DNA of 27,949 nucleotides, taken from Saccoglossus kowalevskii. Its lineage: Eukaryota; Hemichordata; Enteropneusta; Harrimaniidae. The notes below the pieces were generated by a model. It ran no database searches and was not told the DNA's origin. It saw only the letters and a program-made list of their open reading frames with translations. The stretch lies in assembly GCF_000003605.2 (NCBI RefSeq), contig NW_003153258.1, positions 1,082-29,030 of the forward strand, given 5' to 3'. A program made the translations under genes and the position numbers. Positions 3,341 to 27,949 of this stretch are shown here, piece after piece (positions within the stretch are counted from its first letter, which is position 1; every line of letters begins with the position of its first letter).

Positions 3341-3557
3341 ATTTATCTTTCAATCTTGTGTGTCATGTGCACTGGCAAGCGCATGGCTAGTTCGCATTAT
3401 ATGGCTCAACGCATAATGAGCTTGAGTGGCAAAATTCACGTTATCAATGGCCGTATTATTTACCGTGTCAGACAGGAACAAGATACCGGGTGAACTCTGC
3501 CAGGGATTACATGATTTACCGCTGTTTGGTTTCGCAAAGGAGAACAAGACAGGCTAG

Positions 3558-3591
3558 TAACCTTTGTGACCTTTGTTTATAAACAACCAAT
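3558..3591. promoter_or_regulatory. Candidate regulatory cluster: DR3 nuclear-receptor half-sites, FOX palindrome, CCAAT
   Basis: Three motifs abut within 34 bp. TAACCT (3558-3563) and TGACCT (3567-3572) read on the other strand as AGGTCA-3-AGGTTA, a direct repeat with 3-nt spacing. A perfect 14-bp palindrome TTGTTTATAAACAA (3573-3586) contains forkhead cores on both strands. A CCAAT box follows at 3587-3591. The cluster lies about 7.3 kb upstream of the Xlox start codon, in a locally less AT-rich patch (about 3350-3760). Forkhead and nuclear-receptor inputs are known for vertebrate Pdx1, but the link to this gene is only inferred from position. It could equally be chance or the promoter of an unseen transcript. 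Confidence 0.3.
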
Positions 3592-3759
3592 AGTAGGAAT
3601 GTTGTGTCTATACTTAGTTCCATATCGCACATTTAAAAAAACGCGTGACATGGTGTGTTCTTCTCCTCTTGTCACGGCTTTATACGGACTACCTGGTCAT
3701 CGAACTTTTGTTCGCGGCCAGGCTTCTCCTTTTATCGCGACAAACGCCCGTGATTGAAA

Positions 3760-7860: not shown

Positions 7861-7869
7861 CGTATAAAG

Positions 7870-8238
7870 GTGACTGGGCGTCTAGGGGACATTAAAAACA
7901 CTACACTGTCAAAGTGCCGCCGTTGTGGTTACCTAGGCGATGCTAGAGCATCTTTCGTTCCCGTATCTATATTAAGTATACAAGGCGGCGTTTTTGAAGA
8001 ATTGTTTTATATCAACATTGGTGTCCTTCCTCATTTCAACAGAGCGAGGTTGCTCCGCTCGAACGCATCATGTGGTGAATCTATAGTACATGGCAAATGT
8101 CAGAATTGCATGGTCGCCCCGCAAACCTGCATAAAACAGCACAAATTCAGATTCACAGCTTTTCATATATCAACCCACTCCACACTCCTAAAATATAATT
8201 CAATTTGCACAAGCTGGTATGATGAGTTTGAATATTAA
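7870..8238 (+). other. Open frame of 122 codons, not accepted as a gene
   Basis: The frame opens with GTG rather than ATG, and its first in-frame ATG comes only about 80 codons in (near 8110). It has no recognised domain; the C-x2-C spacing near its start (CRRC) is not part of a repeated zinc-binding pattern. Base composition is somewhat richer in G+C at 7870-7960 than in the surroundings, which is why it is mentioned. I think it is a chance frame or an old degraded sequence. Confidence 0.25.
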
Positions 8239-8265
8239 TATCATACGTCAGACATGCGTGATATG

Positions 8266-8275
8266 ATGACGTCAT
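8266..8275. promoter_or_regulatory. CRE palindrome ATGACGTCAT
   Basis: A perfect 10-bp palindrome containing the full cAMP-response element TGACGTCA, the binding site of CREB/ATF bZIP factors. It sits at the edge of a patch at about 8280-8383 that is clearly richer in G+C than its flanks. Whether it belongs to a promoter cannot be told from the sequence. Confidence 0.35.
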
Positions 8276-8799
8276 GTAACATGTATGTTTCCCGTCGCTT
8301 GCTAGGTTGACACCTGTTGTGGTGTTGCTGGTCAGAAACTGGTACTCGGTGAGCTCTGTCATGGCAGCCAGCCTAGTCACCAAATGTTATATTCCTATTA
8401 CATAATGATGCATTTATTAGTTTTTCCCGAAACCTAATTTTTACGAGGAAAAATAAAGCGAATTATCGACACGCTGAGTATGGTTTATCCCAAACACCAC
8501 AAGTCTCTGTCGATTTGAAAATGAAATTTGAATATTAGCCCTGCGCTCTATAAGACTTATACTTCATCTCCAAATCTCTAGGATCTGTATCAGTATTTTT
8601 TATTTATTTTTTATTTATTCATATATCTAATTATTTCACTTGAAAGAAGCGAAGTTTAGTGTTTATGAGTTGGTGGCATTGGCACATCCATTCGGAGATC
8701 GAATAATAATAGGAATAAATGCAGTATGAATTAGAAAACTAGGGGTTCCAGGTTTTTTAGATACTGCTTGAGATGCGTGTCTGAAAATTGTATCGCCAA

Positions 8800-8835
8800 C
8801 TTAGAATACAAGGTGTTTGCCTCCTTGTATCTAAG
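8800..8835. repeat. Compact near-perfect hairpin
   Basis: Inverted arms 8800-8813 (cttagaatacaagg) and 8823-8835 (ccttgtatctaag) pair over 13 positions with a single bulged base, around a 9-nt loop. Pairing does not continue outward, so the structure is too short for a typical animal pre-miRNA. No T-run follows that would suggest a pol III product. Confidence 0.6.
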
Positions 8836-9670
8836 TCATGTCTAATTGGTCAACTTAGTAAAGTGACATCTACTCATGTGTCACGTTAGCCAAATATCCC
8901 CTCCGCCTCTTCCATTCTGCATCTAGCAATATTGTCACTACGGGTCGATTTTAAAAGCATCTTTTTGAGATTATATAACTCTCGTTAACATAAAATAACA
9001 TAACATAAAACATATTTCAATAACTTAAATGGAAACGTCAATTAAGTGCTGGGGAAACGTTTGGCCCAGATACGATGACGAGGTGAATGTATTTGGTGTT
9101 TCAGCGTAATTCGCGTGTAAATACGTATGAAGTGTGGCTCGTTGATTGACTGTTTGATGTTTGCGTAACTGTGAATTCATCTGCATCTGTACGGAATGTA
9201 GTCGCCGATGTTAGTGAGCGTGGCCTTCACGTTGAACAATGAAAATATTACAAGTATGGAATGTTTATTGATCCAGTCATTATTGTTTACAATAAATGAG
9301 AATGAAAACAAATGTGAGTTTCTTGCCGTAGATTCTTGATGGCGCGCTCCATGGCGTGTTTGCCCGACGCTGTTCGGAATGACTTGTTTCCAGGGCGATC
9401 TGAATCCACATAAGACTTTGTAAACAGGTTGGCTTAGTGGCAAGTATCTTTAGGTGTCTTACACACGCCCTCCGAAATGGGTCATCAAATTATGTCGGCC
9501 GGCGTACTTTGTGTGTCTTTGGGAAAGATAGCAACAATTGGCGGCATGTATTTCTAGGGTTTTACTATCAGTAGCGATCTTGTTCCCGATCTCAGAGCAG
9601 ACAGGCGCGTCTATACAAAACAGATTGAGCTATCAAACTTCGTTGCTTAGTTACTGAAATTCGACAAAAA
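8836..9670. other. Intergenic stretch, no gene supported
   Basis: Contains an imperfect (aacat)n-like microsatellite near 8985-9020 and a G+C-richer patch at about 9320-9500. A minus-strand open frame at 9177-9443 (88 codons) starts with a non-ATG codon and shows no recognisable domain, so I do not call it. Confidence 0.5.
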
Positions 9671-9920
9671 ATGGCACAAAAGGTTGTGAATGTTCCAGTT
9701 TTTGGGAGTGGTGAATCGCAAAAAAATGAGCTCGTAACACTTTATGAAGTTACTAAATTGTTCATTTGCGTGAAATAATTGAACAAAAACAAAAAAACAC
9801 GGTGAATTCAAAGCGTGTTTATCAACGTCTTTATCTGTTATATCTTGATGGCCGTGTATACCACATGGACGATTGTGGTTATCACATGAACGTCATTCGC
9901 GAAGGTCGGTACATTTTTTG
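9671..9920 (+). pseudogene. Coding-like segment broken by one frameshift, possible exon of an unrecognised gene
   Basis: An ATG at 9671 in good context (aaaaaATGg) opens 31 protein-like codons, beginning MAQKVVNVPVFGSGE. Frame 1 then runs into TAA at 9776-9778. From 9763 the next frame is open for 53 more codons with equally protein-like content (segments HLREIIEQKQK, RLYLLYLDGRVYHMDDCGYH). One extra T at about 9761-9763 would join the two. The second frame runs to TTTTTTG|GTAAGA, a good splice donor at 9921, just before its stop at 9922. I do not recognise the protein. Each frame alone is short enough to occur by chance, and the claim rests on composition, the shared direction and the donor. 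It may be a decayed gene, an exon with a sequencing error in a T-run, or chance. It lies about 1 kb upstream of Xlox. Confidence 0.3.
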
Positions 9921-9929
9921 GTAAGAATC

Positions 9930-10480
9930 CATGTCTATACTGTAATATTGTAAACAACGCGAACCGATAGTTAGGGCATGCCGGGCATTCGACGGGAGAG
10001 GTCAAACAACAGCAATGTTGACTAGAGATGTACAGTCAATATGTATATTCAAGGCTATTTAATTAGTACGTGTTCAACATGACGGGTACAAGATACGATT
10101 TGTTGATAATATGATTGAGTTCTGATAACATTTATAATAAATATATCGGGGTGTTATAAAGAGAAAATTGTAAATTATTTCAGATCATTTTTATATTATT
10201 TATGTTACTCTCCGTGGCAAAACTGTTAGAATATGCTGATAACACTTGCAAATGTAAGTCGTATATCTCAAGCTTTCAGACATTAGAGAAAAAGTAATAA
10301 AATACGTTTTAATAAATCAATCGAGACGGGATCCCTACATGTTGACACATTAATTCCTGTCAAGGGATTTATTCTCGTTTAGTGGGGCCCTAGAATTCAG
10401 GCTCCTCTTAGAATGAGAAATTGTAAACATAATATATGTGTCTGAAGTAATAAAATAATCTGAATAGAAAATCGAACTCG
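9930..10480. other. Stretch between the coding-like segment and the Xlox promoter
   Basis: Mostly AT-rich. The only structured item is a weak exon-like interval at 10184-10253: ATTTCAG acceptor, a single open frame of hydrophobic residues, and an AAT|GTAAGT donor. Its entry phase does not match the phase-2 donor at 9921 (joining would create TGA), so I do not link the two. Confidence 0.4.
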
Positions 10481-10728
10481 CTTTTCTTATCAGTACAGGG
10501 GGGAATGAAGTACATTTTAAAAGTTGTGTTCATTTCCCGGCCGAATTTTTATTGACATTTACAGAACATGTGGTGCGAAATGCGTGCGAGCACTGCCCTA
10601 TTTTTTATTCCAAAACATCAACAAGTATTTATGTTCCGTTGATAATTTAATGCTTGTTTCGTTATATAAATTATAGATACAAAATGTATAAAGTTAGTTC
10701 TAGCGAATCGCGTAACTGCTTGCATATT

Positions 10729-10850
10729 GTTTGTTTGTTTGCGTTTATCTGTTGCTCAACTCGTCGGTGACAACGGTGGAAGCCGCAGTGGTCATGTGAC
10801 TCTTTGGTTCAATTATAAGCCAAATGACAATGATTGATAGGCATATATAG
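10729..10850 (+). promoter_or_regulatory. Proximal promoter region of Xlox with FOX, GATA, E-box, PBX-HOX and TATA-like motifs
   Basis: Upstream of the start codon, in order: repeated TGTTTGTTTG forkhead-like sites (10729-10741); TTATCT, a GATA site in reverse (10745-10750); GTCATGTGAC, an E-box with USF/MiT-type flanks (10791-10800); TGATTGATAG, matching the PBX-HOX composite consensus (10831-10840); and TATATAG (10844-10850). A TATA box there would place transcription start near 10870-10880 and give a 5' leader of only about 20 nt. Vertebrate Pdx1 promoters use forkhead and E-box/USF inputs, which makes the set plausible, but these are short motifs and could be chance. Confidence 0.4.
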
Positions 10851-10893: not shown

Positions 10894-11335
10894 ATGGACA
10901 ACTCAAATCCATTTTATTCCCCGGCTATGTTCTCAAAAGAGCAGTACGTTCCGCAACAGGGCGTTGTTAACTACGCCACTTCGCCACCGGCTTGTATTTA
11001 CGCCAAGCCGCATATCCAAAACAACTATGGTGGTCATACCATGTCGGTGGTGGAAATGGACGGGCATTTGCGTATGGAACACGCACAGGTGGCAGTGACG
11101 GAGCCGTGTCAAATCGGCCAACAGATGCAACACCAAGTTTCTCGGGTAGCGGTATCTTTGCCGGTGAATTCGCCGGCTTCTTCGATAGCTGTTCACCACC
11201 AACCACAGAATCATCAACAGATGGGTCATACCGGACATCAGATACATAACGCGGACGGACGACCCCAAAACCTGCAGTTTCCGTGGATGAAGACGACCAA
11301 GTCCCACGCACACACGTGGAAGGCGCAGTGGCCAG
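10894..11335 (+). CDS. Xlox: ParaHox homeobox gene Xlox (Pdx1/IPF1 class), first coding exon, partial
   Basis: Encodes the N-terminal 147 residues, plus the first base of codon 148, of the Xlox/Pdx1 transcription factor, which patterns endoderm and foregut in bilaterians. Residues 30-36 are SPPACIY, the conserved N-terminal motif of Pdx1 (SPPACLY in vertebrates). Residues 129-138 are FPWMKTTKSH, the Xlox-type hexapeptide that contacts PBC/Exd (Pbx) cofactors, followed by a Trp-Lys-rich tail. Residues about 79-128 are rich in Gln and His. The start is the ATG at 10894: it has a good context (aacATGg), it is the first ATG after an in-frame TGA at 10831-10833, and the reading before it has no ATG. 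The exon ends at CCAG|GTAAG (donor GT 11336-11337), phase 1. In vertebrate Pdx1 the intron falls at this same point, just after the hexapeptide block. The homeodomain exon is not in the window. The region is also open in other frames on both strands, which I treat as shadow. Confidence 0.96.
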
Positions 11336-14300
11336 GTAAGAACACAAACTGAACCATCCACAAGTCCATCTTCTCATAGCCCCGCATAACTACAATAAAA
11401 CGAGATCCCTTCACCATCGCGACGTTTATAGCAATAAACACTACAACTGAACAGTACTTAATGACTGTACGAAGAGATCCCTCATAATGAGGTGATATTA
11501 GTAGATAAATCTTTGGGCAGGAAACGATTTGGCTGTGTGTTGGTAACTCGTTAATGACATTTGATTTGTTTAACCGAATTTGTTTTCCTTGCTGGTGATT
11601 TACGAAGAAGCAAATTACACCGACTTAACTATGCGTAGAGACGGCCCACACATTAGGGTAGATTGTCGACATCCCCAATATAATCTCCTGCTTCAAATGT
11701 TGTAAATCAATCTACTATTTTTGTAATAAAAACTCAGTTTGGCGAGGTTCTTATATTTCGGAATTTCGAGGACGAAATTATCAATAATCAGTTGAGTTTT
11801 TACCTAATTAGTCTTTTGTTTGCTGTATGTTTTCTTTATTTATTTAATATAATAGAATTTGAATTAAAATTGTTTTTTATGGTTCAATTGGTGTTGGGGT
11901 GATTCCAATTACGTTATCGGACGAGGGCTCGTGTAGAAAGTTATTTATATTTATTTAATTCAAAATTTACGTTTTTGTTGCGCATTCCCGTCCTAGTATT
12001 CGCCTAATATTCATATTATTATCACCATGTATGCGGTGATTGTAAAAAAATCACAGTCGGACTTAGTTATCCCAGCCGTGTTGTTGGTGAATTGCTTTGC
12101 AAGTTAAATCATTCCTCCTTGGCTTCAATTGGAAGTAACGATCTGTTTTTTTAAACCTGAAGTTGTCTCGTACTATATATAGTGCGTGGCTGGGACGGAA
12201 AAGACATACAAAGTGCATTAAGTCTGCCATGAACTCTAAACTCTGAAATTTCGATAATCCACACAAAGCAAAACTCGTTCGGCGCAAACTGTGATGAACA
12301 CACTAATCGGTGATGTGAGTTTATGTCAAATTACAGAAACAAACACACATTTGATTTAAAACAACTAAACAATAAAACTGTTAATTTAATGGTATGACCC
12401 AATCAGCCTGCTTGATACAAGACCCGGTTGAAATATCTCCTCCATTTAAGTTGAAGTATTTATAATGTTGTAGAAATTAATTGTTTGAAGTAGGCTCGTT
12501 ACTTTATATGACATAATCTCATTTTATTCTTCACGTTTGGTTGGCCTTCACTCTATGGAGACAAACAAATTTCAAGTTTAACGACTGTAATAAAAGTTTC
12601 CGAGAAGGGAATCAGATTAAAACAAGTAAATTCTGAGACAGAGAAAAAAGTGGCAGGTCACCAAGTTTACCGATCTTACTGATAATTCATGTTTTGTCCG
12701 CCGCCCCTAGCGAGGTATTTTATAAATATATTTTTTTCAACAACACAAGGTGAATTATGTTAAACGTCTGGTATGTAAATATGCTGGTACGCGCTGTCTA
12801 TTTTCTGTACAATAAAATCAAATCTTTTATTCAACATGCAAGTGTACGGCCATGCTATGCCGATCGTGTCTAAGACAGAGTTGTTAAATGAAATATATTT
12901 AGAAATACTATAGTGACAAAAACTTCGGATAAATAACAGTTTGAATTTGTAACATGCGATGGTATCTGGTGATTTTCTTTTGTTAGTGAAAAATATAAAG
13001 AATAATGAATTCTTTTTTAGATAATAAGCTTATAGTTTTCTATAAATAACCCGAAGTTAAAACTAGTTATTTACTGATTACAATCAGCCGTAGTAATTAG
13101 TAGCGATTTCTTATCAAATATGGTAGTGAAAAAGTAAGATATTAGGTGAAAAGACTAGTCACCGTGTTACACCGTACTTATTCCAGTCGTAAAAATGTCA
13201 ACCACGTTAGGACAAATCAGTGATAAAACTGTAGTTCTGGCATATTGCTGATAAATGAAATGGTGTAAATCATATCGTCTATCGTCTTTAATGTTCACTG
13301 AAAACAACACCTTTACTTCTCCATCATCTGAAAGTAAAATAAAACTATTGATATGTTTGTTAATAATATGCTTACAAAAATAATAATAAATAAAAGGGCG
13401 AAACACTTGTCAATAACCTCGACAGGAAATTGCCGTCTACAAATGTTGTCAGTACGAAAAGTAATTGGAACAACAGAAACATGAATCGTGAAGGTAATGC
13501 GTAGAGCCTTTTTTGTTTTTATAATCGCAGATTTTCCGAATAGTTTAGTACCTGGTGTTTGAGATAAAAAGCCCAGGTATTTTTATCCCTCTTGGTAGTG
13601 TCCAAGCACACAGTAGTCCTGTCTACATAGCGTTATGTGAGACATGGCGACATCCCGTACTGCTACGAACTATTTTTATAGTTCTGGTAAATTATCATAT
13701 ATTTTGATTCGATGTTTTTGTTTCTTTTTCTTCAAGAAAACGAATAAATAAGTAATGTAATTTTCGTAATATAGTAGGCGTTTTTTTCTGATTCTGACAA
13801 TACTGTAGTTTTAATGCATATTGGATGTGAATAGAATTTGGTGCACATTTTATACAGTTTATACAATGAACATACAACGAAATTTGCTAAATCTCGTCTA
13901 CTCGTAATCATAATTAAAGGCAAGATAGTATGACATATACATAGCATTGACGTATCTGGGATTTCTAGCACACTCATACCAACCCATCATTGAATTAGGA
14001 CATAGACAACAAATTATCAGGGAATAAAACGGCTATCATTTAACTACAACTCATTCGAAGGTTTTTGTAAATGCTCTGTCTACCAGGAAAAGGGCCAGAT
14101 TATCTCCCGATATTGTTCCCAGGGACTGAATTTTACTGACCGATATTTCGCCCATTATCCCTGGATTTTAGTCCCTGTATATATTTGTTGTTGTCTGGAA
14201 TTCTGTCTTTTACAGATGTAAGTAAGAAGTTGTTTGTACATTTATTCATGCCTTCCGAATATATGATACAATAAAACAACCATGACAAAACTATTTATGG
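11336..14300 (+). other. Xlox intron 1, first unique part
   Basis: Begins with the consensus donor GTAAGA. AT-rich, without recognisable coding segments. The homeobox exon was looked for (IWFQNRRMKW and flanking residues) and not found here or further on. Small inverted repeats occur, for example GATAAAAA/TTTTTATC at 13563-13587 and CAGGGACT/AGTCCCTG at 14120-14177. The 60-80-codon open frames on the minus strand look like chance. Confidence 0.65.
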
Positions 14301-14309
14301 CACCGTGTT

Positions 14310-14770
14310 TCTGACACGAATCTGGAGTAGGTCGTTCTTTTTAAAAGAAACTATGTGTATAATATTACCTTTTGAGATGTACGAGTATATCCCGTGTTTC
14401 TAATATAAACTAATGTATTACGTTTGTATTTCTTCTAAGCGAAGCATTCCGCTTCCCGCTGTTCTTGAAACGAATACCGCTGTTCCTGGAACAAAAAACA
14501 TAAAATGTTGTTTTCAATTCAGATAAGGTGGTTGCCACTGTTTCTGGGCCTAGTGTTTGCCGTGTTTTAAGGTGAACCCGGTGATTTCTGTTATTTCTAA
14601 AATGTTGACTATTGTTTTGTCATGTTTCTAATCGGAACAGGGTACACGCTGTTGTTCTGTTTCTTTTAACCTGGACCAGGTGGTACGTTTCTCGATGAAC
14701 AAGGTGACCGCAATTGTTTTAATCCAAACCAGATACGGATTGTTTACGGTGCTTGTAAAACCTCCCCTAG
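14310..14770. repeat. Degenerate tandem repeat region
   Basis: Loose repetition of a motif of the form ggaacaggg-tacacgctgtt-gtttct. Instances are near 14467 (cgaataccgctgttcc), 14519, 14568, 14636 (aacagggtacacgctg), 14676 (accaggtggtacg), 14699 (aacaaggtgaccgc) and 14729. Spacing ranges from about 23 to 60 bp, so the period is not well fixed. It looks like an old minisatellite. Confidence 0.45.
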
Positions 14771-15235
14771 GCTCTATAATGTTTTCAGCTATTCTAAACG
14801 GGGCATCTTTTTTTTAAATAACTTGGATACTGTTACATTTTTAATTCTATTAATTGTTTGTTTGTACTAGTTTCTTTTTTTTCACGAAAGAAGTGCATCG
14901 ATTAGGTCTTTGCTACTTTTCTTAATGAAAATAGATGTATGTTATTATTTCCAAACGACGTTTTACTCATAAACGTTTACATTAGGTAACAGCGCAGTAC
15001 AGTTTGTTTTATGGACCAGTGAAATATGATACATAATTACCGATAAATTAGACATAAATATGCTGCTTATTATTCTTATTTATTATTTAATGTGGGTAAA
15101 TTGGTGAAGATTTACCACGTTATATTAATATTAAATACTGACTGTATGTTCTGTTTTGCGAGTGTCAACTATCAATGCATTGCAAATCACCTGATTTCCA
15201 GGAGTTTACAACACTAGTCTGCATCGACGTTCCAC
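14771..15235. other. Unique intron sequence between tandem arrays
   Basis: AT-rich sequence with no coding, RNA or transposon signal that I can support. An AG|GTAACA junction near 14988 lacks a strong pyrimidine tract. Confidence 0.5.
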
Positions 15236-16722
15236 TGTGAGCGTCCAATATATTGCCGCTGCTTTTATTTGTGAGTCATCAGCTTCCGCCAATGCCGCTG
15301 CCGGCTCTGATCTGTGGGGTATACATTGCCGCTACTCCACTGTTAAGATCTGCGAGACATCGGATCGCCCTATATAGCTGTTCAAATCTGTGAGACGTCC
15401 AATCCCCCTACTGCCGTTGCTCTGATTTGTGAGACATCTGATCGCCTTATTGCCGTTGCTCAAATTTTGTGGGACGTCCAATCCCCTTACTGCCGCTGCT
15501 CGAATTTTGTGAGACGTCCAATCCCCTTACTGCCGCTGCTCGAATTTTGTGAGACGTCCAATCCCCCCACTGCCGCTGCTCTGATTTGTGAGACGTCCAA
15601 TCCCCTTACTGCCGCTGCCCGAATTTTGTGAGACGTCCAATCCCCCCACTGCCGCTGCTCAGATTTGTGAGACGTCCAATCCCCTTACTGCCGCTGCTCG
15701 AATTTTGTGAGACATCCAATCCCCTTACTGCCGCTGCTCGAATTTTGTGAGACTTTTAATCCCTCCACTGCCGCTGCTCTGATTTGTGAGACGTCCAATC
15801 CCCCACTGCCGCTGCCCGAATTTTGTGAGACGTCCAATCCCCCCACTGCCGCTGCTCTGATTTGTGAGACGTCCAATCCCCTTACTGCCGCTGCCCGAAT
15901 TTTGTGAGACATCCAATCGCCCTATTGCCGCTAGTCAGATCTGTGAGAGTTCCAATCGCCCTATTGCTACTGCTCAGATCTGTGAGACATCCAATCCCCC
16001 TACTGCCGCTGCTCAGATCTGTGAGACATCCAATCGCCCTATTGCCGCTGCTCAGATATGTGAGACATCCAATCGCTCTATTGATGCTGCTCAGATCTGT
16101 GAGACATCCAATCCCCTTACTGCCGCTGCTCAGATCTGTGAGACATCCAATCTCCCTACTGCCGCTGCTAAGATCTGCAAGACATTCAATCGCCCTATTG
16201 CCGCTGCTCAGATCTGTGAGACATCCAATCGCCCTATTGCCGCTGCTCAGATCTGTGAGACATCCAATCGTCCTAATGTCGCTGCTCAGATCTGTGAGAC
16301 ATCCAATCGCCCTATTGCCGCTGCTCAGATCTGTGAGACATCCAATCACCCTATTGCCGCTGCTCAGATCTGTGAGACATCCAATCGTCGTAATGTCGCT
16401 GCTCAGATCTGTGAGACATCCAATCGCCCTATTGCCGCTGCTCAGATCTGTGAGACATCCAATCACCCTATTGCCGCTGCTCAGATCTGTGAGACATCCA
16501 ATCACCCTATTGCCGCTGCTCAGATCTGTGAGACATCCAATCGCTCTATTACCTCTACTCAGACCTGTGAGACATCGGATCACCCTATTCCGCCGCTCCA
16601 ATTCCTGAGACAATCGATCGCCTTACTACCGCTGCTCTGATTTGTGAGACAATATTGCCGCTGCTCTGATTTGTGAGACACCCGATCGCCCTATTGCCGC
16701 TGCTCTGATTTGTAAGACTTTC
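15236..16722. repeat. 39/40-bp satellite array with two subfamilies and higher-order repeats
   Basis: About 38 units. The 5' block (about 15385-15905) alternates 40-bp units with cgaattttgtgagacgtcc and 39-bp units with tgatttgtgagacgtcc, giving a ~79-bp dimer. The 3' block (about 15905-16570) is a very regular 39-bp unit, agatctgtgagacatccaat plus cgccctattgccgctgctc. It carries a BglII site (AGATCT) in most copies. A 117-bp (3 x 39) higher-order repeat is seen from the variant cgt(c/g)(c/g)taatgtc at 16269 and 16386. Both ends of the array decay into diverged units. Because 39 is 13 codons and the unit has few stops, long frames of up to 258 codons open on both strands, reading for example AAQICETSNRPIA. 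They are not credible genes: several frames are open at once and the 40-bp units break them. Confidence 0.97.
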
Positions 16723-17330
16723 CGTTCGCCTTTTTTCAATTCCCTGATTTGCAGAACATACGATTCGCCCTGTCGCCCAAGGACTATTACCGCGGCCAAA
16801 TAAGGGAATGTCATAATACTCGTGCAACATTTCGCATTATAGTCTATTGCATTTCCACGGCTTGTTTCTTGTACTGTAACGTAATCGGAACGCCATATCA
16901 CCGAATCTTCTACCCCAAAATCTTACATTAATGATCAAAAATGAAAATTCACACACACGGGAGTCAATTTTTTTACCACTAAGCGTCATAAATGACGCAA
17001 TTTGACTACAATCTGGTTTTTCTTCTGTCAAATTTCGAACTCACGACTACGGCAAATAAAAATGAGCCTCGACACTGTAAGCGGGAGAAACCATGATGCT
17101 CACGTAAACCTTATTTTTCTACCCTAAATTGTAGTGCGTCGTTTTGCATATTGCGTTTTTTTTTTGTTTTTTTTTGTATATTTATCTTTTTTTAATTTTG
17201 GATTAAATTGGCATAATTGCCCGTTAACTACAGAATTTGGTCAGATGAAAAGATTTTACAGATTTATTTATTTGAAATAATGGCAAAAGTTTGTGGTACT
17301 TATGGTTAACGTAGATACTTAAAACAAGCA
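16723..17330. other. Unique intron sequence after the satellite
   Basis: No gene seen. Contains a 16-bp inverted repeat GCGTCATAAATGACGC (16983-16998) that includes GTCATAAA, a posterior-HOX/CDX-type core, and a long T-rich tract at about 17157-17190. Confidence 0.5.
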
Positions 17331-17339
17331 GCCTCTCAA

Positions 17340-18200
17340 CTGAGATAGATCCGCTGTTAGCAATGCACATTTCACTTAAAGAACTCGAGATATCTACCTG
17401 AGCTACCTATCTATATAGTATTAAATCAATGGGATTGCTGTTTTCAACAAGAAGCCAAAAATATTTTTACTAACAATTACAAAAATAGTCATAAAAAATA
17501 GAACATTGAAGATATCATCACAAAATGAACAAATCTGAGAGAGGTACCTACATGCACAACATCAAAGCAATCGGACTCGCGGTTTTAACAAGTTGAAAAT
17601 ATCACTTTTTACCAAAAATTGCAAAAATATTCAGCAAAATTATAAAATTGAAGATATCATCATGAAATAAACAAATCTAAGAGAGGTCTACCTGTATATG
17701 TATAATTTCAAAGCAGTCGAACTTGCGATTTATAACAAGAATTCGAAAATATCACTTTTTACCAAAAAAAACAAAAATATTCTTCCAAATTAGAGAGCTG
17801 AAGATATCATCACGAAATTGGCAAATCTGAGAAAGTTCACCTGTAGTATCTATATATAAAATATAAAAGCATTTGAACTTTGTTTTTCAACAATAAGTGA
17901 CAAAAATATTCATCAAAATTAGAAAATTAAATTTTCACCACGAAATGAACAGATCTAAGAGATGTCTACCTGAGGTACCTATATGTATAATATCATAGCT
18001 ATTGGACCTGCTGTCGAAAATATCACTTTTTACCAAAAATAACAAAAATATTCATAAACATTAGAGATTTGAAAATATCATCAAAAATGAACAAATCTGA
18101 GAGAGGTCTGTCTACATATACACCAAGTATAAAAACATTCAAACTAGTAGTTTTCAAGAAGTCGAAAAAGTAAAAAGTTGACGCGGACGACGGACAATCG
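17340..18200. repeat. Diverged ~140-bp tandem array, five to six copies
   Basis: Landmarks recur with spacings of about 142, 150, 128 and 142 bp: gaagatatcatca(cg)aaatgaac (17509, 17651, 17801, about 17930, about 18071), acaaatctgagagaggtcta, and gaaaatatcactttttacca. Copies differ by many substitutions and small indels, so the array is old. The right end runs into gttgacgcggacgacggaca (about 18178-18197); GACGGACGACGGAC-type sequence is common in molluscan repeats, from memory, which weakly supports the taxonomic guess. Confidence 0.85.
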
Positions 18201-19640
18201 ACAGCGGGGCTAAAATGTATACATGCTAAATCTATATCTAATAGAGATACAATGCTCTGCTATGCAGCATACATCAGACATAAACTCGAGCCTAATGAAA
18301 TCGTAGTGCTCACCACATTCTTGTTCAAGTTTTCACCCAAATAATTACTGAAAATACAGATTTTTTGAGCCAAAATTGATATTGGATTCAAAGAAAATTA
18401 CAGAAATTGTGAGAAAGATTGATCACAATTTATTGGGCGGGATTGCCGACGTGTAAAATAACGTCGTTCATACATGTGAAGGAGTGACTGCGCGTCGCAT
18501 TATCTTAAAATTAACGACAATATACGACCTCAATCAAGAGCCGTCATAAATTCACACGCTGCATTTATAGTACATGATAGTAATTACAACGACTGATTTA
18601 TAATTTGAACCTCAACGACGAATAGTTTAGATGATAAATAGTCGACACTTATATAAATAAAACAAAATAACATCAATTAATTAAATAATGTCCGTGCGCT
18701 TTTAACAATGTACACAAGATTCGTTTCACCAATGTGACATATTCACTTTCATGGTGCCACATTACTTGTTAAGATATCGTTTAGTTTTCGGCGTTTCTTT
18801 TTCCACTATTATGCACGGCAGTTGCATACGAATTACTGCATCCATGGCATGATAATGAAGTTATTGTATATAGTTCATCTAAGATAATTGAAATTTTGTT
18901 CGTTTTCGAGATCGTTTTTAATTTGCTTGCGTTTCAGGCATTATAACGCTATCACAATACTCGTGCGTTGTTTCATTTTTGCCTAAACCACGTAGAGTGG
19001 GTCGACAGGGACCAGAAACAAATATGAGTCGGCATTTATGCTGTCCACACACTCGTTTGACGTGTGTTTAAAACTGCATCAGCACAGAGAGGCGAGGGAA
19101 ATTGAGAACGACTTTATGTTGGATAACGTGCTCATGTAATGATAATCACATGTCACTTTGTAAGTGGCCCCAACCGTGTTTGGAGTCTGTCTTATTACAG
19201 CGTCACCGTAAACACATATGTCAATTGCAGATGTGAGTTTATTTTATAACATCAAAACATTATAGTCACATTACGAGTCAGCAACTAATAACTGAACACT
19301 GTATGGACGAAACGTACTGATTTACCAGTGATCATAAGGACTAGTCGCAAATTAGTTTACTTTTAAAGTTGTGTACGTGTTTTACTCTGCGCTAGCTTAG
19401 GGATATCGGTTCCGAGGTCCGTTAGATTGCGTTCTTGGGTTTGGATTTGGCGTCTACGACAACAAGAGAAAAAAACACATTAATGTATTAGTTTTCACAG
19501 CAACTTGGATCATGTCTGAAATTTCGGGTATAATTAGTTGTTGTGCTATGTTAGATCAAATACACCCGACTAAACATGTTACCATGGCAATTGTGTCTAG
19601 CTTTATTGTAACAACACAACCAAACACAGATTATGTAAAC
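18201..19640. other. Intron sequence without recognised features
   Basis: AT-rich, no coding exon with splice signals, no RNA gene and no clear repeats seen. Confidence 0.5.
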
Positions 19641-19757
19641 GAATCCAACGGGTCTTGGAGGCTTACTTTCAATAGATCGTAGCGAAGCGGCTGCTCTGCT
19701 AAGTACGATACCCCGATCCAAGTGATTCGGCGCCCCTTTCACGGAGGGGATGATCAC
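19641..19757 (-). rRNA. Fragment of the 3' end of 28S rRNA (pseudogene/retrocopy)
   Basis: Read on the minus strand, the segment contains atcggggtatcgtacttagc, then agagcagc, then cgatctattgaaagt. This is the highly conserved block just before the 3' terminus of metazoan 28S rRNA (the human gene has the same block ending GCGATCTATTGAAAGT). The match is clearest between about 19665 and 19735; the outer bases up to 19641 and 19757 are more divergent. No other rRNA is present, so this is an isolated fragment. It could be a 5'-truncated retrocopy of rRNA, the head of a 28S-derived SINE, or an rDNA insertion. A 69-codon open frame across it is meaningless. Confidence 0.85.
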
Positions 19758-20510
19758 CACTTTCTTCTTATAATATAAGGCAATATCGTAGGTCCCTGAA
19801 ACATAAATTAGGGTTTGTCCAATCCCTTAAGTCAGGTGCTTCAGCATTTTTTTTTTTTTTTGAACTTCGTGTGAATATACATATGACATATGACGGGTTT
19901 AATTTGCCGGTCGAGATCCTGACTTTTAGTCGTATTCTTTTATTTAAATTACTTATAGCAATACTTTGTTTTATGTATCAATTGTTATGTCATGTATTAT
20001 ATAATGTACAACGCGGGGATTTCACAGAAAATGTTTTTGCATGTTTTCTTCAATTTAAGTATGGAGATAGAATATAAGGCTACACCAATTCATTACGTTG
20101 ACATCATGATCGTGTAACAGAAATCAATACAAATGGGTTTCGACGCGTATGTCAGTGTGATGACGTGTCAGAATATTAGGCAATGGACGGACATTACAGA
20201 AATAGAAAATCGGTTTGACCATTTATGATTTTGGGCATTTTATAATTAACAATGGTCACCGGAGTGAGATAGAACGCTACCATGTGAAACTAGCATCTTG
20301 TTTATTTGTTATATTTTGGAGGGTTAGTGTGTGTATAATTCAGCTTGGTGGTTACTTTTTAACATTTGCATACTCACACGTTTTTAAAATCAAAACCTCG
20401 CTCTCGTCACAAACTACCGAGATTATAACAGTGAATTGGCTCACAAATATCGAGAGAGAAATTAAGTGAAACAAATACTGGTTTTCTTTGTGTGCATACG
20501 ATGGGAAGAT
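19758..20510. other. Intron sequence, no gene seen
   Basis: Includes a T15 homopolymer at 19847-19861 and an 84-codon open frame at 20215-20469 without recognisable features. The T-run sits on the side of the rRNA fragment that would be its 5' end, so it is not that fragment's poly(A) tail. Confidence 0.5.
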
Positions 20511-20514
20511 TGGG

Positions 20515-21228
20515 TTAAGGTAGAGATGCAGTTTACCTGACAGGTGTTTTAATCAGTTAAATTAAGAAACCAAGATGACCTCCCTTGTCCACAAAACTAT
20601 ATATTTTCGGAAAGCTTATTGTATGAATTTCAACATTTTGTAAGTATTTTTTTATGGACATTGTAGTTTGAAATATGCACAAAAATGTGTTTTTGGTCAA
20701 AAATGATTTTAAAAAATTAGCTTCTAAACCATGCCTCTGTGTCCTGTCAAAATTGGTTTACAGGTACATCTGTTTACTATGAAGCAAGTGCCGTCTTGAA
20801 AACTGTATACCAGTTGTCAATTTTGATGGGCAGCAGCTCAAATTTCACTAATTCAAGTTTATGCATAAATTAACACCCAGGCTAGTTGTCTGTACGATTG
20901 TTTTAACACTATTCACCAAAATGCCCCGACGTTTTGAAGATAAATACATTGTCAATCATTTGTGAAAATTTCAAAAAAAAGGTCAAAGCGTCTAGAAGCT
21001 ATTTGTTCTGGGACGTGCACTAAAAGAAGCTGAGATAATTGCTAATTTGCATATTTTAAAGTTAAGTAAAAATATATGCTGATTTACATCGCCATTGGAT
21101 TTAACAGAGTTCCACTAATGATTTTAATTTCAAATTTTCAAAGAATACAGATGTTCATACAATGCCATTAAAATAAAAAAAAGTGAAATTTGTCAAAATT
21201 TGCAAAATAAACTGCATCTCTACTTTAA
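20515..21228. mobile_element. MITE-like element with ~17-bp terminal inverted repeats, TTAA at both ends
   Basis: Left terminus ggtagagatgcagttta (20519-20535) and right terminus taaactgcatctctact (21208-21224) are inverted copies differing only at the outermost base. Both are immediately flanked by TTAA (20515-20518 and 21225-21228), consistent with a TTAA target-site duplication as made by piggyBac-type elements; a TA duplication is the alternative. The interior of about 670 bp is AT-rich and has no transposase frame, so it would be non-autonomous. The inverted repeats and flanking TTAA are seen directly; the superfamily is inferred. Confidence 0.7.
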
Positions 21229-22510
21229 AACCTAAACATCTCCTTTGAACAGAGCGTAATACTAGCATACGCAATCAAGGTGAATTAGTAATACATATGT
21301 AATATTGTTGACGACATTTTGCAGTCATTACTCAATCGCCACTGCATGTTCCTCTTAAAACATTCACTATACACAATATCATTAGGGAAACAAGAGTAGG
21401 TGTGTAAACTTAAATTAAGTCGCTCGACCAATCAAACACGTAAGGTGTCGTCATTTTTGACTCGATCTAAGAATAGTGATGTGCCCTGCTGTTCAGTCTG
21501 GAAATCATGTGAAATCTCGTCAGTGCAATATCTGTTATCCCATTCATTGCAACTCAATAACGATCAATGCGGCAACTGGTTTACAGTGAGGGAGGTACCA
21601 GATTATCACGTTGAATGTATGAATAAATCATATTTTGATGTCGGAATATGTCTCCACTTGTAATTGTTTTAAATGTATTTGATTCATTTGATATTTGAAA
21701 TAACGCGTGGACCATTCTAGCGGACTGATCTGAATGCACCGACAATAACGTCTGTGCCATTCTGTTCCACTGTCTTGTGAAAATTACATAATGCGTGATG
21801 TTCGGTAAACAAAAAATCAAATCTGCGGGGACGGATTACTAATTTTCGCACGGTACCTTTTCTCTTGTACTTTTTCATTATTTCCATGAAAAGTGAAAGT
21901 AGTTCCGATCCAAAACGAGTTGAAATTTGTCCTTAAATAAATCACACAATTTAATTTAATCTGTAATTTTTGTGTAAACTGGTAAAATATACAACATATT
22001 TTTATGTTTGACAACATAATACTGGGACTCTTTCTAGGGAAAACCTATCAAAGTCAAGTCGTTTTCATGTTGATATCATATCAACGGACGGACCTCTTTG
22101 AAATCAATGAGACCAGACTTTATTTACATGATTAGAGCTAGGATTGTATAAAATACTAGTACAATCATAGACTATACAGCACACTGGAAATATATTCAAA
22201 TAAACAATAGTTTTTTTTATATAAAATTCATGCAATGTGGAATGCTTCCCGCATCAAGATCATAGCATCAATCATTGTGATGACAATTTGCATACAAAAC
22301 CGGCATTATGAATGCTAACTTGCTGTTTCTAACAATTAATTCAAACAACAATGTCACACTAAAATTAATTTTAACAAAAATATAATATTTGTAAACAAGC
22401 TGCATTTTATTCTAAATATGCGTATATACAGGGATCAGTAGATTTTTAAAAGTCCCACGATCATAGACGGTATGTAGTCTACATTCCAATATACAGCTTC
22501 GTTATTTCTT
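21229..22510. other. Intron sequence, no gene seen
   Basis: Short open frames on both strands (21400-21663 plus, 21581-21820 minus) show no domain or splice context. A perfect 8-bp-arm inverted repeat GTTGATAT-c-ATATCAAC is at 22069-22085. Confidence 0.5.
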
Positions 22511-22511
22511 C

Positions 22512-22860
22512 AGCCGCGATCAGCAAGGTGTGCTACTGTAGCATTTTACGAATGACTCTAAAAAATTCTTCCTTATAGTGTATTTGATTTAACAGAAGTA
22601 AATTTGCGACACGATTTCATCTTAACAACAATGACCACATATAAGGTCACTGAAGTTACATAGCAAGAATAAAATAAGGGCAACGAAACAAAAAAGAACA
22701 AATAATAACATTTTTAAAAATATAGCTTCCTCTTTCTATATAATGATTTGATGTTTCTGCCTTGTAGAAAGGTTCCATTACACTGTAATAAATGTATCGT
22801 CATGATTAATAAAGCCAGGGGTGGATTTTGAAACTTCTTCATATAACCGTCTTTGCTGAT
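22512..22860 (+). repeat. Dispersed repeat family, copy A
   Basis: Shares with copies at 23924 and 25159 the core cgcgatcagcaaggtgtgct followed by actgtagcattttacgaatg. It continues with tgtatttgatttaacagaag and atttcatctt (to 22642). After about 190 bp not present in the third copy, the shared end ataaccgtctttgctgat appears at 22843-22860. Confidence 0.85.
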
Positions 22861-23514
22861 CAATACATAAATAAATGTATAATGAAGAGTAATTCATCTT
22901 CGATTTCCTACTTATCACATAGGTTTTGCTTTTGTGCGTTTACCTGTTGAAATTTTCAATGAATGGATGCTTAATCTAAATCTGCTTGATTGATCACGTT
23001 CATCTTTTCTTTATCTCATTATTCATCGGTTTCCCAATATATCGTGAGCTATTCTCTAAATTTGTATTTATTTCTTTTATCTGTTCACCTGTAAAAGCAC
23101 AAGTAAAAGAATCAACTGCATTGTACCATTTGGTGTTAATCCGCAGCATGCCTTAGGAGTGAGTTATTAATAATGAATATGCGGTTATAATATTTATTTG
23201 GCTGTCTTTAATAAAGATAGCTAGTTGAAATCGGCCTAGCCCCCGATAGATACCCATTATGGGTGTAATTTTAGAAACTTGAAAGAACCGATAATAGTTT
23301 AGGTGCATCTCTTCTACAGCTGTCTTATAGGCATTATCCCATATTTCACAACCATGTCATAAAATTGGGCGAATGAATTTTTCAAACCGAGAAAGAAAAG
23401 TTGTAATTTCTATATTTTGCTTATAACCAATTTTCTCTTTTGTAGTTTTGGGCCTTTTTTCTTCACGTTTGTCGTGTCCTTTTTAATTGTTTTTGGTAAG
23501 AGTTCTTTGGGCCC

Positions 23515-23634
23515 CTCACCCATAACTCTAATCCTAACCCTGCCCTCCAGTACCCCTTCTGCATTTCTATTGTATATACCCCTTATTGAGTCACTTGGGT
23601 GGCTGGAGTGTTAAGGTTAGGGTTTAAGAGTGAG
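23515..23634. repeat. Fold-back with telomere-like CCTAACCC/GGTTAGGG arms
   Basis: Arm 23515-23550 begins ctcaccc, contains ctaatcctaaccct and ends ctccag. Arm 23603-23634 begins ctggag, contains aaggttagggttta and ends gagtgag. The two are imperfect reverse complements around a loop of about 52 nt. The cores resemble one to two units of the TTAGGG telomere repeat in opposite orientations. It overlaps a 65-codon open frame (23417-23614) that has no gene-like features. Confidence 0.65.
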
Positions 23635-23732
23635 GAAGCTATAAAGTATTTTTTCCTTTTTTTATTTATGCTCAATACCACATCTAGATATTAGAAATAT
23701 CTAACAAGAGATAAATTCAAATAATGTCATAT

Positions 23733-23766
23733 TTTTGTGTGTTTTGTGTGTGTGTGTGTGTGTGTT
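23733..23766. repeat. (GT)n microsatellite
   Basis: Dinucleotide run of GT units with one TTTT interruption. Confidence 0.95.
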
Positions 23767-23923
23767 CACTGAGAGCTTTACCTGTTTTGTTTATTTTGTG
23801 AGATAGTCCCAACTGCTTTAAAAGCTGGATTTTGTTTCCGGGAGAATAACAAGGGCATCAGCATATATGAGATAACTGGCCTAATTGTGGGACATGCAAT
23901 AGACAGCATCATTGTAGCTCCAT

Positions 23924-24058
23924 TCGCGATCAGCACGGTGTGCTACTGTAGCATTTTACAAATGACTCAAATTCATTTTGTTTTTCAGTTTGATCGTTAT
24001 TAATGTGTATTTGATATTTAGTAGTCTATTTAACAGAAATAAATATTGTATACGATTG
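23924..24058 (+). repeat. Dispersed repeat family, copy B
   Basis: Starts tcgcgatcagcacggtgtgc, then tactgtagcattttac, and continues with a diverged body (gatcgttattaatgtgtatt and a later taacagaaataa). It is the most divergent of the three copies. Confidence 0.8.
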
Positions 24059-24743
24059 TAAACGCTCGGACAACAACGGCAGCTTCAGTAATGGTCGGCG
24101 CAAATCATACATACAGCACCCCCAGCGTCATAACAGAGTAACGAAAATATCCATGCATTTTTATTTCTCGCTTTTTGATTTTCCGCGGATTACGTTTTCA
24201 CAAAGGTCCGGAAATTCTGCCTAGGTCGCATATATAAACATTTGTTACGATTTCTAGGTTTCTAGGTTATGGGGAAAAGTTGAATTATATGGTTGTATTG
24301 GTAAATTAGAATATTGTTTTTGTCCGATTATTCACATGTGTTATATTGCGATTAAGACAAAGCTATTATCTAGTATTATGTTCATGTTGTGGAGTTAATT
24401 CAGTTTTGACTAATGTTACGTACTTGCTGATTTAACAAGGTACAATATTGTCAAGTAGTTTAAAACTTAAGCTGTGTGAAAGTGTTCTCTGCCATCTGTA
24501 CTTATCCATTTAATTTTTAGGTTGTAATAAAATGTCTCTTCATAATGTTATTATTATTATTTATATTTATTCACTGTACCTGTGAATGGCCTCGATATTA
24601 ACCAGTTAAATACAAAAGAATAACTATAAACATGTAAACATATAGAAATAAAATAAATGTATGGAAAAATGTGCCAATATTGCACCAACATTGGAGGTGG
24701 GGAATAAAACTTATTCAAATGGTTTTGATAGTTCTACTGTAAA

Positions 24744-24869
24744 CATTCAGCTTTTCTGTTCTAACTAAAGTATTCAATTTTATTTGAATATCATATCATA
24801 TCATATCATTCAGCTTTTCTGTTTTAACTAAAGTATTCAATTTTATTTGAATAACATATCAATGTTAAT
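24744..24869 (+). repeat. 63-bp tandem duplication with an (ATATC)n microsatellite at the junction
   Basis: cattcagcttttctgtt followed by aactaaagtattcaatttta recurs exactly 63 bp apart (24744 and 24807) with only a few differences. The junction is four units of ATATC (about 24789-24808), which suggests slippage or unequal exchange at that tract. Confidence 0.95.
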
Positions 24870-24901
24870 GTGCAATACAGAATTTATTGTAGGTATGTAG
24901 T

Positions 24902-24989
24902 GTACATGTGATTGACGTAACTGTGTATGTAATCTTATAACTTATGGCGTGATGTGATAAAATGTGATTACCATCAATGATTGTATGGA
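24902..24989 (+). repeat. Dispersed repeat pair D, first copy
   Basis: gtacatgtgattgacgtaac through gtgattaccatcaatgattg matches 25651-25744 over about 90 bp with small indels. A 68-codon minus-strand frame here (24865-25071) is a shadow of repeat sequence. Confidence 0.8.
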
Positions 24990-25158
24990 TCCGTGCCCCC
25001 TTACACCCGTCTCTATTTGCGCTAAACGACAAGTAAATAAACGTATCAACCGAAAACAGAGAAATTAACAATGATTTGTACTGAATGTATACTATGCAAA
25101 TTAGAATTCAAAAATACCTTATGAAATGAAGTTTAATGACAATAATTCTCATACATCA

Positions 25159-25362
25159 GTCGCGATCACAAGGTGTGCCACTGTAGCATTTTACGAATGA
25201 CTCTAAAAAATTCGGATGGATACTCAGTATGATCGTTCTTAAAGTGTATTTGATTTAACAGAAGTGAATTATCGACGCGATTTCATCTTCACTACAATGA
25301 CCACATACACAAAAAATATTCATACAACCGTCTTTGCTGATTATACATATGTATTAAGTGTA
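25159..25362 (+). repeat. Dispersed repeat family, copy C
   Basis: gtcgcgatcacaaggtgtgc, then cactgtagcattttacgaat, then tgtatttgatttaacagaag and atttcatctt. It then runs directly to caaccgtctttgctgat without the extra ~190 bp found in copy A. It keeps a segment (atgatcgttcttaa) that copy A lacks and copy B has in changed form. Confidence 0.85.
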
Positions 25363-25650
25363 GGTAAGCCTAATTCTTTGGGCACTTGAGCAATAATTGA
25401 TGTAGGTTGTAACAGTAGTATACGTTCACGAAGATTGTTTTAGGGAATGATATCAACAATTGTTAGAACAATGTATAATCTTGCATGCTGTCCGATGTAT
25501 TTGATAGAGTGGGTATATATGTCTCAATTGATTGACGGTGTATTCAAATTGACAGTCTGGACAGCTGCGTCACAATGATTTTATCAACGATTTGTCTGTG
25601 TCATGATTAATACAAACGTCTTTTGTATTGTTATTACCTAGTCATTCAGA

Positions 25651-25744
25651 GTACATGTGATTGATGTGACTGTGTGTGTACGGAGCACGCTTGCAACTTA
25701 TGACATGATTTGATATGATGTGATTACCATCAATGTTTGTATCC
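25651..25744 (+). repeat. Dispersed repeat pair D, second copy
   Basis: gtacatgtgattgatgtgac through gtgattaccatcaatgtttg; partner of 24902-24989. It lies a few hundred bp to the right of copy C, suggesting that C and D may be parts of one composite repeat. Confidence 0.8.
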
Positions 25745-26012
25745 AATCAGAGTTCTTTACATTGATAGTTATAGCGGGCGATCATAAACCCCTTTTGTAT
25801 TTTTTTTTATAAAATGCGTTGAGAGGCATCAATCCAAAAAGAAATATATAAAAATATGTGTACAGGGGGAGATAAATTGAACGGTAGGTGCATTTGTTAC
25901 GGTGACAATTAAGTTATTTAACATTCTAACTAGTTGTCAGATTGCCTAATACATTGATTTATACGGCACACTGGTTGTATCAATGATAATTCCCAACATT
26001 GACATGTAATCG

Positions 26013-26037
26013 GATTAGGGTTAGGTTAGGGTTAGGT
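26013..26037 (+). repeat. Short interstitial telomere-like tract
   Basis: About four units of TTAGGG/TTAGG type (attagggttaggttagg then gttagg). Too short to be a telomere; an internal telomere-like stretch. Confidence 0.8.
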
Positions 26038-27400
26038 GTGCGTCAGATAAGAGGCTAGGACATTGACATAGATTATGTATGAAAATGTATACGATTTACG
26101 CAATGATGAGAAGTGTGAAACTCTCAATAATAAGTTATTATGAGTTCGGGTCAAATAAAGCAAGCCTGTGTGATTTTGTATTATATTGGACATAATTTAT
26201 AATACATTGCTTTCTTTAATCAAGATGTAAAATAAAACACACGTTAGCATACGTTATCTGGGGGTAGATAAGGACAAAGCATTCCTTTCATTTACTATCT
26301 TTTAATTTTATCACGACTGTTTTTCGTGATACTTGTACGAAAATAATGTTTTAAACATAAATAGTGTAATGAAAAGAATTTTAGCTGATTTAGATATCAT
26401 AATTGAGTTATGTCCAGCTGACCAGATTTCGCTGAAATTCATATTTTATCAAAATTGAAATGCGACATCAGTGTGGTTAGTAATTGTTATGACGAATATC
26501 TTGATTAGCATAAATACAGTTTATTTTGGTTCATTTTTAAGAAGCGAAACCTGATAAAATTAGAAAGTTGGATATCAAATATTATATATAAACACGTTTG
26601 TAAACACCATATTCAGGCAAGCGATTATTAACCCTTAACTGGCATGAAACGCTGAACTGACCCCTATATGTATATTAGTCTTGTTAATCTGGTTTATTTA
26701 AACTCAAATTAACTTCAATACTAATTAATACCAGTCAATATAAATACCAGTAATGACTAACTTCACACCCTGTTAAACTGTTGTCAATATCACTAAAGAC
26801 AAGAATTGTTCTTGACTGGTAGAAAACCGGAATCTGGGCTTAGTTATTGAAGTGTTTTGACCACAGGATTTAAGTGTAAATAAGTAATAATATTGAAGAT
26901 ATTTGTTCCTGGAATGTTCTCAAGCAGGACAACTTGTAACTGAAAATAAAATCCAGCATTAAATTCTGAATTGCAAATAGAGCATAGTCTTAAATTCTAA
27001 TCTGTTAATTCTTGCATGTCTAACCTTTTCTGTTGCCAAATGTGTAGTTTGAATATCCCAAACAGGCGTAAGCCCGCATCCGGGTGTATGCACTATTCTG
27101 AAATATCTGAAACAGATATTCTAACATTGGCGCAGTTAAATAACATTAATTATTAAAATATAAAATATATGTGACTATAGCTGAAACAAAAATTCAAGAA
27201 TATGCAGGAAAAAGGCACAAACAAAAGACAATATTTGGTTCAGTTCCAGTATCAGTCACACACGCTTATTTATATTGGTGACACTATGGTAACTTATTTA
27301 ACATATATTTAAAAACGTAGTATTTTCAAAGAAACCACATTCTGAATTCAAGCAGTCTAACAATAATAAAATAAATCAAATGTTCAATACAATCAGTCTG
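26038..27400. other. Intron sequence leading to the candidate micro-exon
   Basis: AT-rich. A hairpin with AATATCTG/CAGATATT arms lies near 27102-27120. No other coding segment supported. Confidence 0.5.
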
Positions 27401-27421
27401 CCTTCACTTCTCTTTTTATAG

Positions 27422-27475
27422 ACTGGCATCACGGCCGCTTTCCTAAAGTAGAAGTTGAAGTGCCTCCGAGCAAAG
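27422..27475 (+). CDS. Candidate 54-nt micro-exon of Xlox between hexapeptide and homeodomain
   Basis: Left side: pyrimidine-rich tract ccttcacttctctttttatag with AG at 27420-27421. Right side: CAAAG|GTATGG with GT at 27476-27477. Two of the three frames contain stops (TAG, TAA); the only open frame enters with two bases of a codon and leaves with one base of a codon. This is exactly compatible with the phase-1 donor of Xlox exon 1 at 11335. Joined, the first codon is GAC and the exon reads DWHHGRFPKVEVEVPPSK. Length 54 makes it a symmetric cassette that can be included or skipped without shifting the frame. G+C is 28 of 54 in strongly AT-rich surroundings. I do not recognise the peptide from other Xlox proteins, where the homeodomain exon usually follows the hexapeptide exon directly. 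It may instead be a chance splice-flanked segment or an exon of a different gene. Confidence 0.5.
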
Positions 27476-27949
27476 GTATGGAGATATCATACACCAATCC
27501 TCTTATTTGGAATCACCCTTGGTATTCGGGATTCATTACTGTCACTTTAATTGGAATCTGTGTCCACTTATGTAATTATTCATAGCATCGTGTCCTTTTT
27601 AAATACTGTCACTTCTTGTGCTCTGTTCTCCTTTTATCAATATCTCATTTGAAATATCATATTAACGTATTATGTCTATATTGAAATACCATGGTTTCTG
27701 CAAATGGGTCATGGAAAGCAATGGAAACATGTGTTCTGAATAAACTGTGCACCATTTGTCTGCAAGAACATAGATTAGTTGTTTGAATGTGTTGTCTATC
27801 TTTGAAAGTCAAACGTTATTGGCACACAACAGAAACTTGACCTTGACATCGGTAATTGATTACAATAATGACAACAATAATTGCCTATCAGTCTTGAATA
27901 CAACTAGTGTCAGTGAGCACATAGGTGATTCAAGTCAACAGCTGACAAA
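27476..27949. other. Sequence after the candidate micro-exon to the window end
   Basis: AT-rich, no homeobox or other coding exon recognised before the window ends. Confidence 0.5.

Follow-up and report, generated by a model that had tools for sequence, protein, structure and literature searches.

A candidate 54-nucleotide micro-exon between the hexapeptide and the homeodomain of the acorn worm Xlox gene

Xlox, a gut-patterning gene, corresponds in invertebrates to the pancreas gene Pdx1, and the FPWM-type motif of Hox-type proteins contacts Pbx/Exd partners. The question raised by the locus studied here, in the hemichordate Saccoglossus kowalevskii, is whether the linker that joins this motif to the homeodomain of Xlox is lengthened by a separate small exon. 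The window, by which we mean the whole stretch of 27,949 nucleotides that was analysed, corresponds to C4312:1082-29030 in the assembly that was searched (572 Mb, 4830 contigs). We consider it probable that positions 27422-27475 of the window are a real small coding exon of Xlox, with the hexapeptide exon before it and the homeobox exon after it. As far as sequence can tell, this segment is best read as a micro-exon that would extend the hexapeptide-homeodomain linker in frame, and its phases would permit use as a cassette. The features on which the argument turns are the following, in window coordinates:

10894 to 11335, plus strand: Xlox/Pdx exon 1, from the ATG to a phase-1 donor, with an open frame, donor GTAAGA and the hexapeptide FPWM at 11278
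11336 to 27421, plus strand: intron from exon 1 to the candidate exon, or part of a larger intron entering the gap; donor at 11336, acceptor at 27421
27403 to 27421, plus strand: polypyrimidine tract and acceptor TTCACTTCTCTTTTTATAG, acceptor score 5.74, with possible branch points at 27360 or 27406
27422 to 27475, plus strand: candidate micro-exon of 54 nt, phase 1/1, predicted peptide D-WHHGRFPKVEVEVPPSK
27473 to 27481, plus strand: donor AAG/GTATGG, score 4.37
27476 to 27585, plus strand: stretch beyond the donor over which the frame stays open until a TAG, codon score -15.9, read as intron or, on a rival view, as an alternative terminal exon

The upstream anchor of the argument is exon 1, which we take to belong to Xlox from the family motif FPWMK..KSHA..WK..W. 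It is 442 nt long, hence of phase 1, and both the Xlox-type stretch after FPWM and the phase-1 junction are present, the exon ending in FPWMKTTKSHAHTWKAQWP plus G before its GTAAGA donor, which scores 7.20 on a simple matrix. Exon 1 had no match in Pfam or PDB. Its protein had no relative in prokaryote and virus contig collections and its DNA had no match in a plasmid collection, all of these collections being uninformative on conservation. A TATATA-box-like sequence at about 10843-10850, some 50 nt 5' of the Xlox ATG, suggests a short 5' leader, and a 32-bp tandem array of 58 copies occupies window positions 1-1876, also 5' of the gene.

The downstream anchor is absent from the assembled letters. 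Among 41 matches in the assembly to an Xlox-type homeodomain query there was no Xlox homeodomain, and the best of them (75% identity) is one that we read as a Hox gene. A run of N begins one base past the end of the window, at C4312:29031-39507, and presumably contains the Xlox homeobox exon. Beyond it, at C4312:44139-44306 on the minus strand, 15.1 kb past the window end, lies a homeobox that we take by reading of the sequence to be that of Cdx, and that points towards Xlox; Gsx, on contig C628, was named in the same way. An OHCU decarboxylase gene also lies beside the ParaHox genes, with an exon on the minus strand covering L014:9153-9191 and more; the vertebrate ParaHox neighbour PRHOXNB/URAD belongs to this family. 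Two further contigs carry Hox-type homeoboxes in a consistent order, every one of them on the plus strand: C132 presumably runs from the posterior genes to a Hox3-like gene and C1423 presumably holds Hox2 and Hox1, both assignments being made from sequence signatures; the Hox3-like homeodomain on C132 appears divergent. In the text available from PMC3698058, SkXlox is placed adjacent to SkCdx in an arrangement worded as "head-to-head", with SkGsx on another scaffold. As assembled here Xlox and Cdx are convergent, as against that wording, and the part of PMC3710244 at hand describes Cdx as reversed relative to Gsx and Xlox.

The same assembly includes a mitochondrial contig, C4830, of 17,037 bases, on which COX1 was identified by Pfam and the tRNAs by ARAGORN, the remaining genes being presumed identifications, named from their translations. 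COX1 lies on the opposite strand from most genes, nd4L is adjacent to nd4 and nd5 to cob, and ND2 precedes ND1. One tRNA has the anticodon TTT, which stands for Lys under one genetic code and for Asn under another. Of the nine ATA codons of COX1, five align with Ile (the others with Val, Val, Leu and Met), and the sole AAA aligns with Lys. Extracts of PMC3121625 and PMC2697986 give AUA as Ile in echinoderms and hemichordates and AAA as Lys in Saccoglossus kowalevskii, and the extract of PMC3121625 also reports for this species the UUU anticodon, inversion of COX1 and relocation of ND1 or ND2. By its gene order and code the contig fits Saccoglossus, most likely S. kowalevskii, and argues against an echinoderm.

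The candidate exon begins ACTGGCATC and ends GAGCAAAG, with CCTTCACTTCTCTTTTTATAG as its 5' flank and GTATGG as its 3' flank. The original prediction had attributed to it a single open frame whose phase (1/1) fits the Xlox exon 1 donor 16 kb upstream, a raised G+C content and a strong acceptor, and all of these properties were recovered. Only the phase-1 frame is open, with stops in both of the others; its conceptual product, the peptide DWHHGRFPKVEVEVPPSK, would contribute 18 residues, among them three acidic (including the junction D), two His, three Pro and three Val. The G+C content is 0.52, versus 0.28 and 0.37 in the 100-nt flanks, a level reached by 1.1% of 54-nt windows of the visible intron when the stretch from 14.9 to 17.0 kb, which contains the tandem array, is excluded and by 6.2% when it is included. 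The T-rich acceptor at 27421 is equalled or exceeded in score by two of 747 AGs, the candidate counted, and the best-scoring acceptors of 5 of 14 homeobox exons of the same genome fall below it. The donor, which had been called good, is present, but it is only moderate, at 4.37 against 7.20 for exon 1; seven of 1008 GTs score at least as high, again with the candidate counted. Two motifs resembling branch points, at distances of 16 and 62 nt from the exon, are both less than ideally placed. The frame runs open beyond the donor for 36 codons, to a TAG at 27583-27585. The codon score is +3.25 over the 54 nt, and the coding-like sequence seems to end at the donor at 27475, because the 36 codons past it score -15.9.

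The region 26900-27949 is single copy in the genome, and the predicted RNA fold around the candidate is ordinary (z -1.19). An exact 20-mer of the exon had no match in a viral contig collection, which is uninformative on conservation; a text search of open-licence papers for peptide fragments found no paper, and the window contains neither a tRNA nor an Rfam match at the gathering threshold. The Xlox intron further contains a 39-bp tandem array of 34.5 copies (window 15377-16718), its G+C well above that of the remainder of the intron, in which 13-residue repeats run without stops at about 15.86-16.64 kb in two frames of the plus strand and one of the minus strand, and a 150-bp unit present 2.5 times (window 17464-17832).

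The homeobox loci of this genome served as calibration and control only. In all 14 homeobox exons examined, out of 95 homeobox matches, the best-scoring acceptor is of phase 1, and a 1/1 exon therefore fits between exon 1 and the homeobox exon. With these phases both inclusion and skipping would keep the frame. Within the preferred reading of a real linker exon there is accordingly room for a constitutive one, such that all mature Xlox mRNA carries the 54 nt. We put this forward tentatively and regard it as about as likely as a cassette: PMC3710244 gives the PmLox gene of the sea star three exons, and nothing noticed in the sequence here marks the exon as regulated, whereas the 1/1 phase permits skipping and forms without the exon are reported in relatives.

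A different account would make the segment a chance pseudo-exon, that is, splice-like sites around an open stretch of a long intron that are never spliced in. Splice sites were scored here with a simple matrix built from human frequencies and untrained on Saccoglossus, and a qualifying pair was defined as an acceptor and a donor both scoring at least zero, 20-250 nt apart, in phase 1/1 and enclosing an open frame. The 16.6 kb of visible intron contains four such pairs, of which 27422-27475 ranks best; the runner-up, 12711-12749, has a codon score of -9.3, and the third, 14680-14703 (24 nt), one of +1.0. The entire minus strand of the window and positions 1-10800 of the plus strand contained no pair as good, and the whole plus strand yielded one further such pair, 11189-11335, which lies within exon 1 and ends at the true donor of that exon. 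When splice sites and phase were the sole criteria, simulated introns contained a pair as good in 5.4% of 500 runs and, under two models with 1200 runs each, in 4.5% and 6.8%, and the latter range speaks for a pseudo-exon, as do the moderate donor and the description of Ptychodera Xlox with two exons. Against it stands the codon score, computed from a table of 1960 codons drawn from the 14 homeobox exons of this genome and exon 1: among 4138 open 54-nt frames of the repeat-free intron just 127 score at least as high as the candidate, and the score drops after the donor. When the codon score was required too, a criterion added after the candidate was seen, matching simulated introns fell to 0.6% and 0.25% under the two models; this joint rate and the precedent of the sea star exon also argue against a pseudo-exon.

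The real-DNA control, of about 173 kb of strand-bases from the same genome, gave two pairs as good as the candidate. Both fell in its first part (122.6 kb of strand-bases, to which the window contributes its intron on the minus strand and positions 1-10700 on both strands); the second part, about 50.5 kb around Hox1, Hox2 and Gsx (with 3263 N in L037), gave none. Several of the control stretches are rich in N, L033 and L034 wholly, L032 largely, and L012 and L013 by about half, which leaves the control smaller than intended. One of the two pairs lies inside a true exon, that of the OHCU decarboxylase gene (Pfam PF09349, E = 8e-32); the other, of 57 nt, lies on the sense strand inside the Cdx linker intron. 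Left unsorted, two pairs in 122.6 kb amount to 0.27 for an intron as long as this one; of all the estimates this is the least favourable, and it counts towards a pseudo-exon; the unsorted control makes a weaker case for the candidate exon than the simulations do. With both sides considered, we hold a chance pseudo-exon to be unlikely.

The Cdx match, which surfaced in this way as a control match, occupies the same place as the Xlox candidate, in the intron that separates the hexapeptide and homeobox exons:

C4312:45867-45923 (L011:6837-6893), minus strand: Cdx candidate of 57 nt, phase 1/1, open, GDVSQLISGSQVVDGGMLT, acceptor score 5.91, donor score 5.56

Cdx exon 1, the hexapeptide exon (PYAWMR), ends in PYAWMRPATYNKNQQT plus G, in phase 1, with a donor score of 7.38; the Cdx homeobox exon has a phase-1 acceptor scoring 8.43, and the linker intron between them measures 4703 nt. 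The threshold was reached in 1.6% of 1500 simulated introns of Cdx intron composition. A second, weaker donor lies inside the candidate, and a Pfam scan of its peptide gave no match. The Cdx segment is a lead only and is weaker than the Xlox candidate, because its codon score is negative (-3.4). A far broader proposal would have Xlox and Cdx, the two ParaHox genes of this animal with a hexapeptide, both carrying cassette micro-exons (54 and 57 nt, phase 1/1), so that splicing would tune the length of ParaHox linkers as it does in insect Ubx. On this view the Xlox exon would be an old bilaterian one, shared by acorn worm, sea star and cuttlefish, which mouse, sea urchin, Gibbula and Ptychodera have lost or in which it has escaped notice; we think this improbable.

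Least credible is an alternative last exon, in which the acceptor at 27421 would be used and read-through to the TAG at 27583 would give an Xlox form without a homeodomain, and which we judge very improbable: the 36 further open codons and an AATAAA at 27739-27744 would suit it, whereas the continuation has a codon score of -15.9 and an in-phase donor ends the coding-like part. We return to a small linker exon as the probable reading, for which we count its rank as best of four pairs, the simulations, the codon score, the sorted control, the phase-1 acceptors of the homeobox exons, its single-copy status and the sea star precedent, and against which we count the moderate donor, the awkward branch points, the open frame past the donor, the rate in the unsorted control, the late addition of the codon criterion, the homeobox exon missing from the assembled letters, the two-exon Xlox of Ptychodera and the reported lack of the extra peptide in sea urchin, mouse and Gibbula.

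Were the exon spliced in, the linker between FPWM and the homeodomain would be longer by 18 codons, which would alter its reach and charge. By analogy with Hox proteins, the reach of FPWM to Pbx would then be altered while the homeodomain sits on DNA, and the altered linker would probably change the spacing or strength of partner-assisted DNA binding. We infer use of the exon in transcripts, regulation of that use and an effect on Pbx binding. If the reading is true, Xlox would have a linker exon in a hemichordate as well as in a sea star, which would point to an early origin of such exons in this gene, and partner use tuned by splicing, in the style of Ubx, would become testable in a gut-patterning gene.

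The candidate is of interest though it has precedent, and it is not the first of its kind. The original prediction had held that no such exon was described for Xlox/Pdx1; this does not stand, since PMC3710244, in the part available, reports for PmLox of the sea star Patiria miniata that an additional exon supplies 23 residues after the hexapeptide. The sea star exon is small and separate, sits between hexapeptide and homeobox and lengthens the linker, as the acorn worm candidate would do in the same gene; the two differ in length (23 residues versus 18 codons) and in phylum (echinoderm versus hemichordate), and they are compared by position and description. We infer that the candidate is the positional counterpart of the PmLox exon, a homology by position only. 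In the same partial text the extra PmLox peptide is said to have no counterpart found in sea urchin, mouse or the mollusc Gibbula, and a peptide of like size is placed at the same position in Xlox of the cuttlefish Sepia officinalis on the basis of a cited personal communication, a likeness in place within the protein that is known from one sentence without exon structure. In its authors' proposal the length of the linker is of consequence, and alternative splicing may produce both forms. The other hemichordate in the comparison, Ptychodera flava, shares the gene and a relatively long intron; its PfXlox is described with two exons and no extra exon is reported in the sections of PMC3698058 seen, which argues against an exon common to all hemichordates, although one that is skipped might have been missed there.

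The comparison with Drosophila Ubx that the original prediction drew holds as to alternative splicing and partner binding: according to the text seen of PMC4186791, the b element, mI and mII are alternatively spliced micro-exons next to the homeodomain, and Exd binds the isoforms differently. The likeness lies in short exons next to a homeodomain, with Ubx isoforms that differ in partner binding, Exd included. The difference is that Ubx is a Hox gene and Xlox a ParaHox gene, that alternative use is established for Ubx and putative for Xlox, and that the two arrangements are presumably of independent origin; Ubx is thus a fair functional analogy only.
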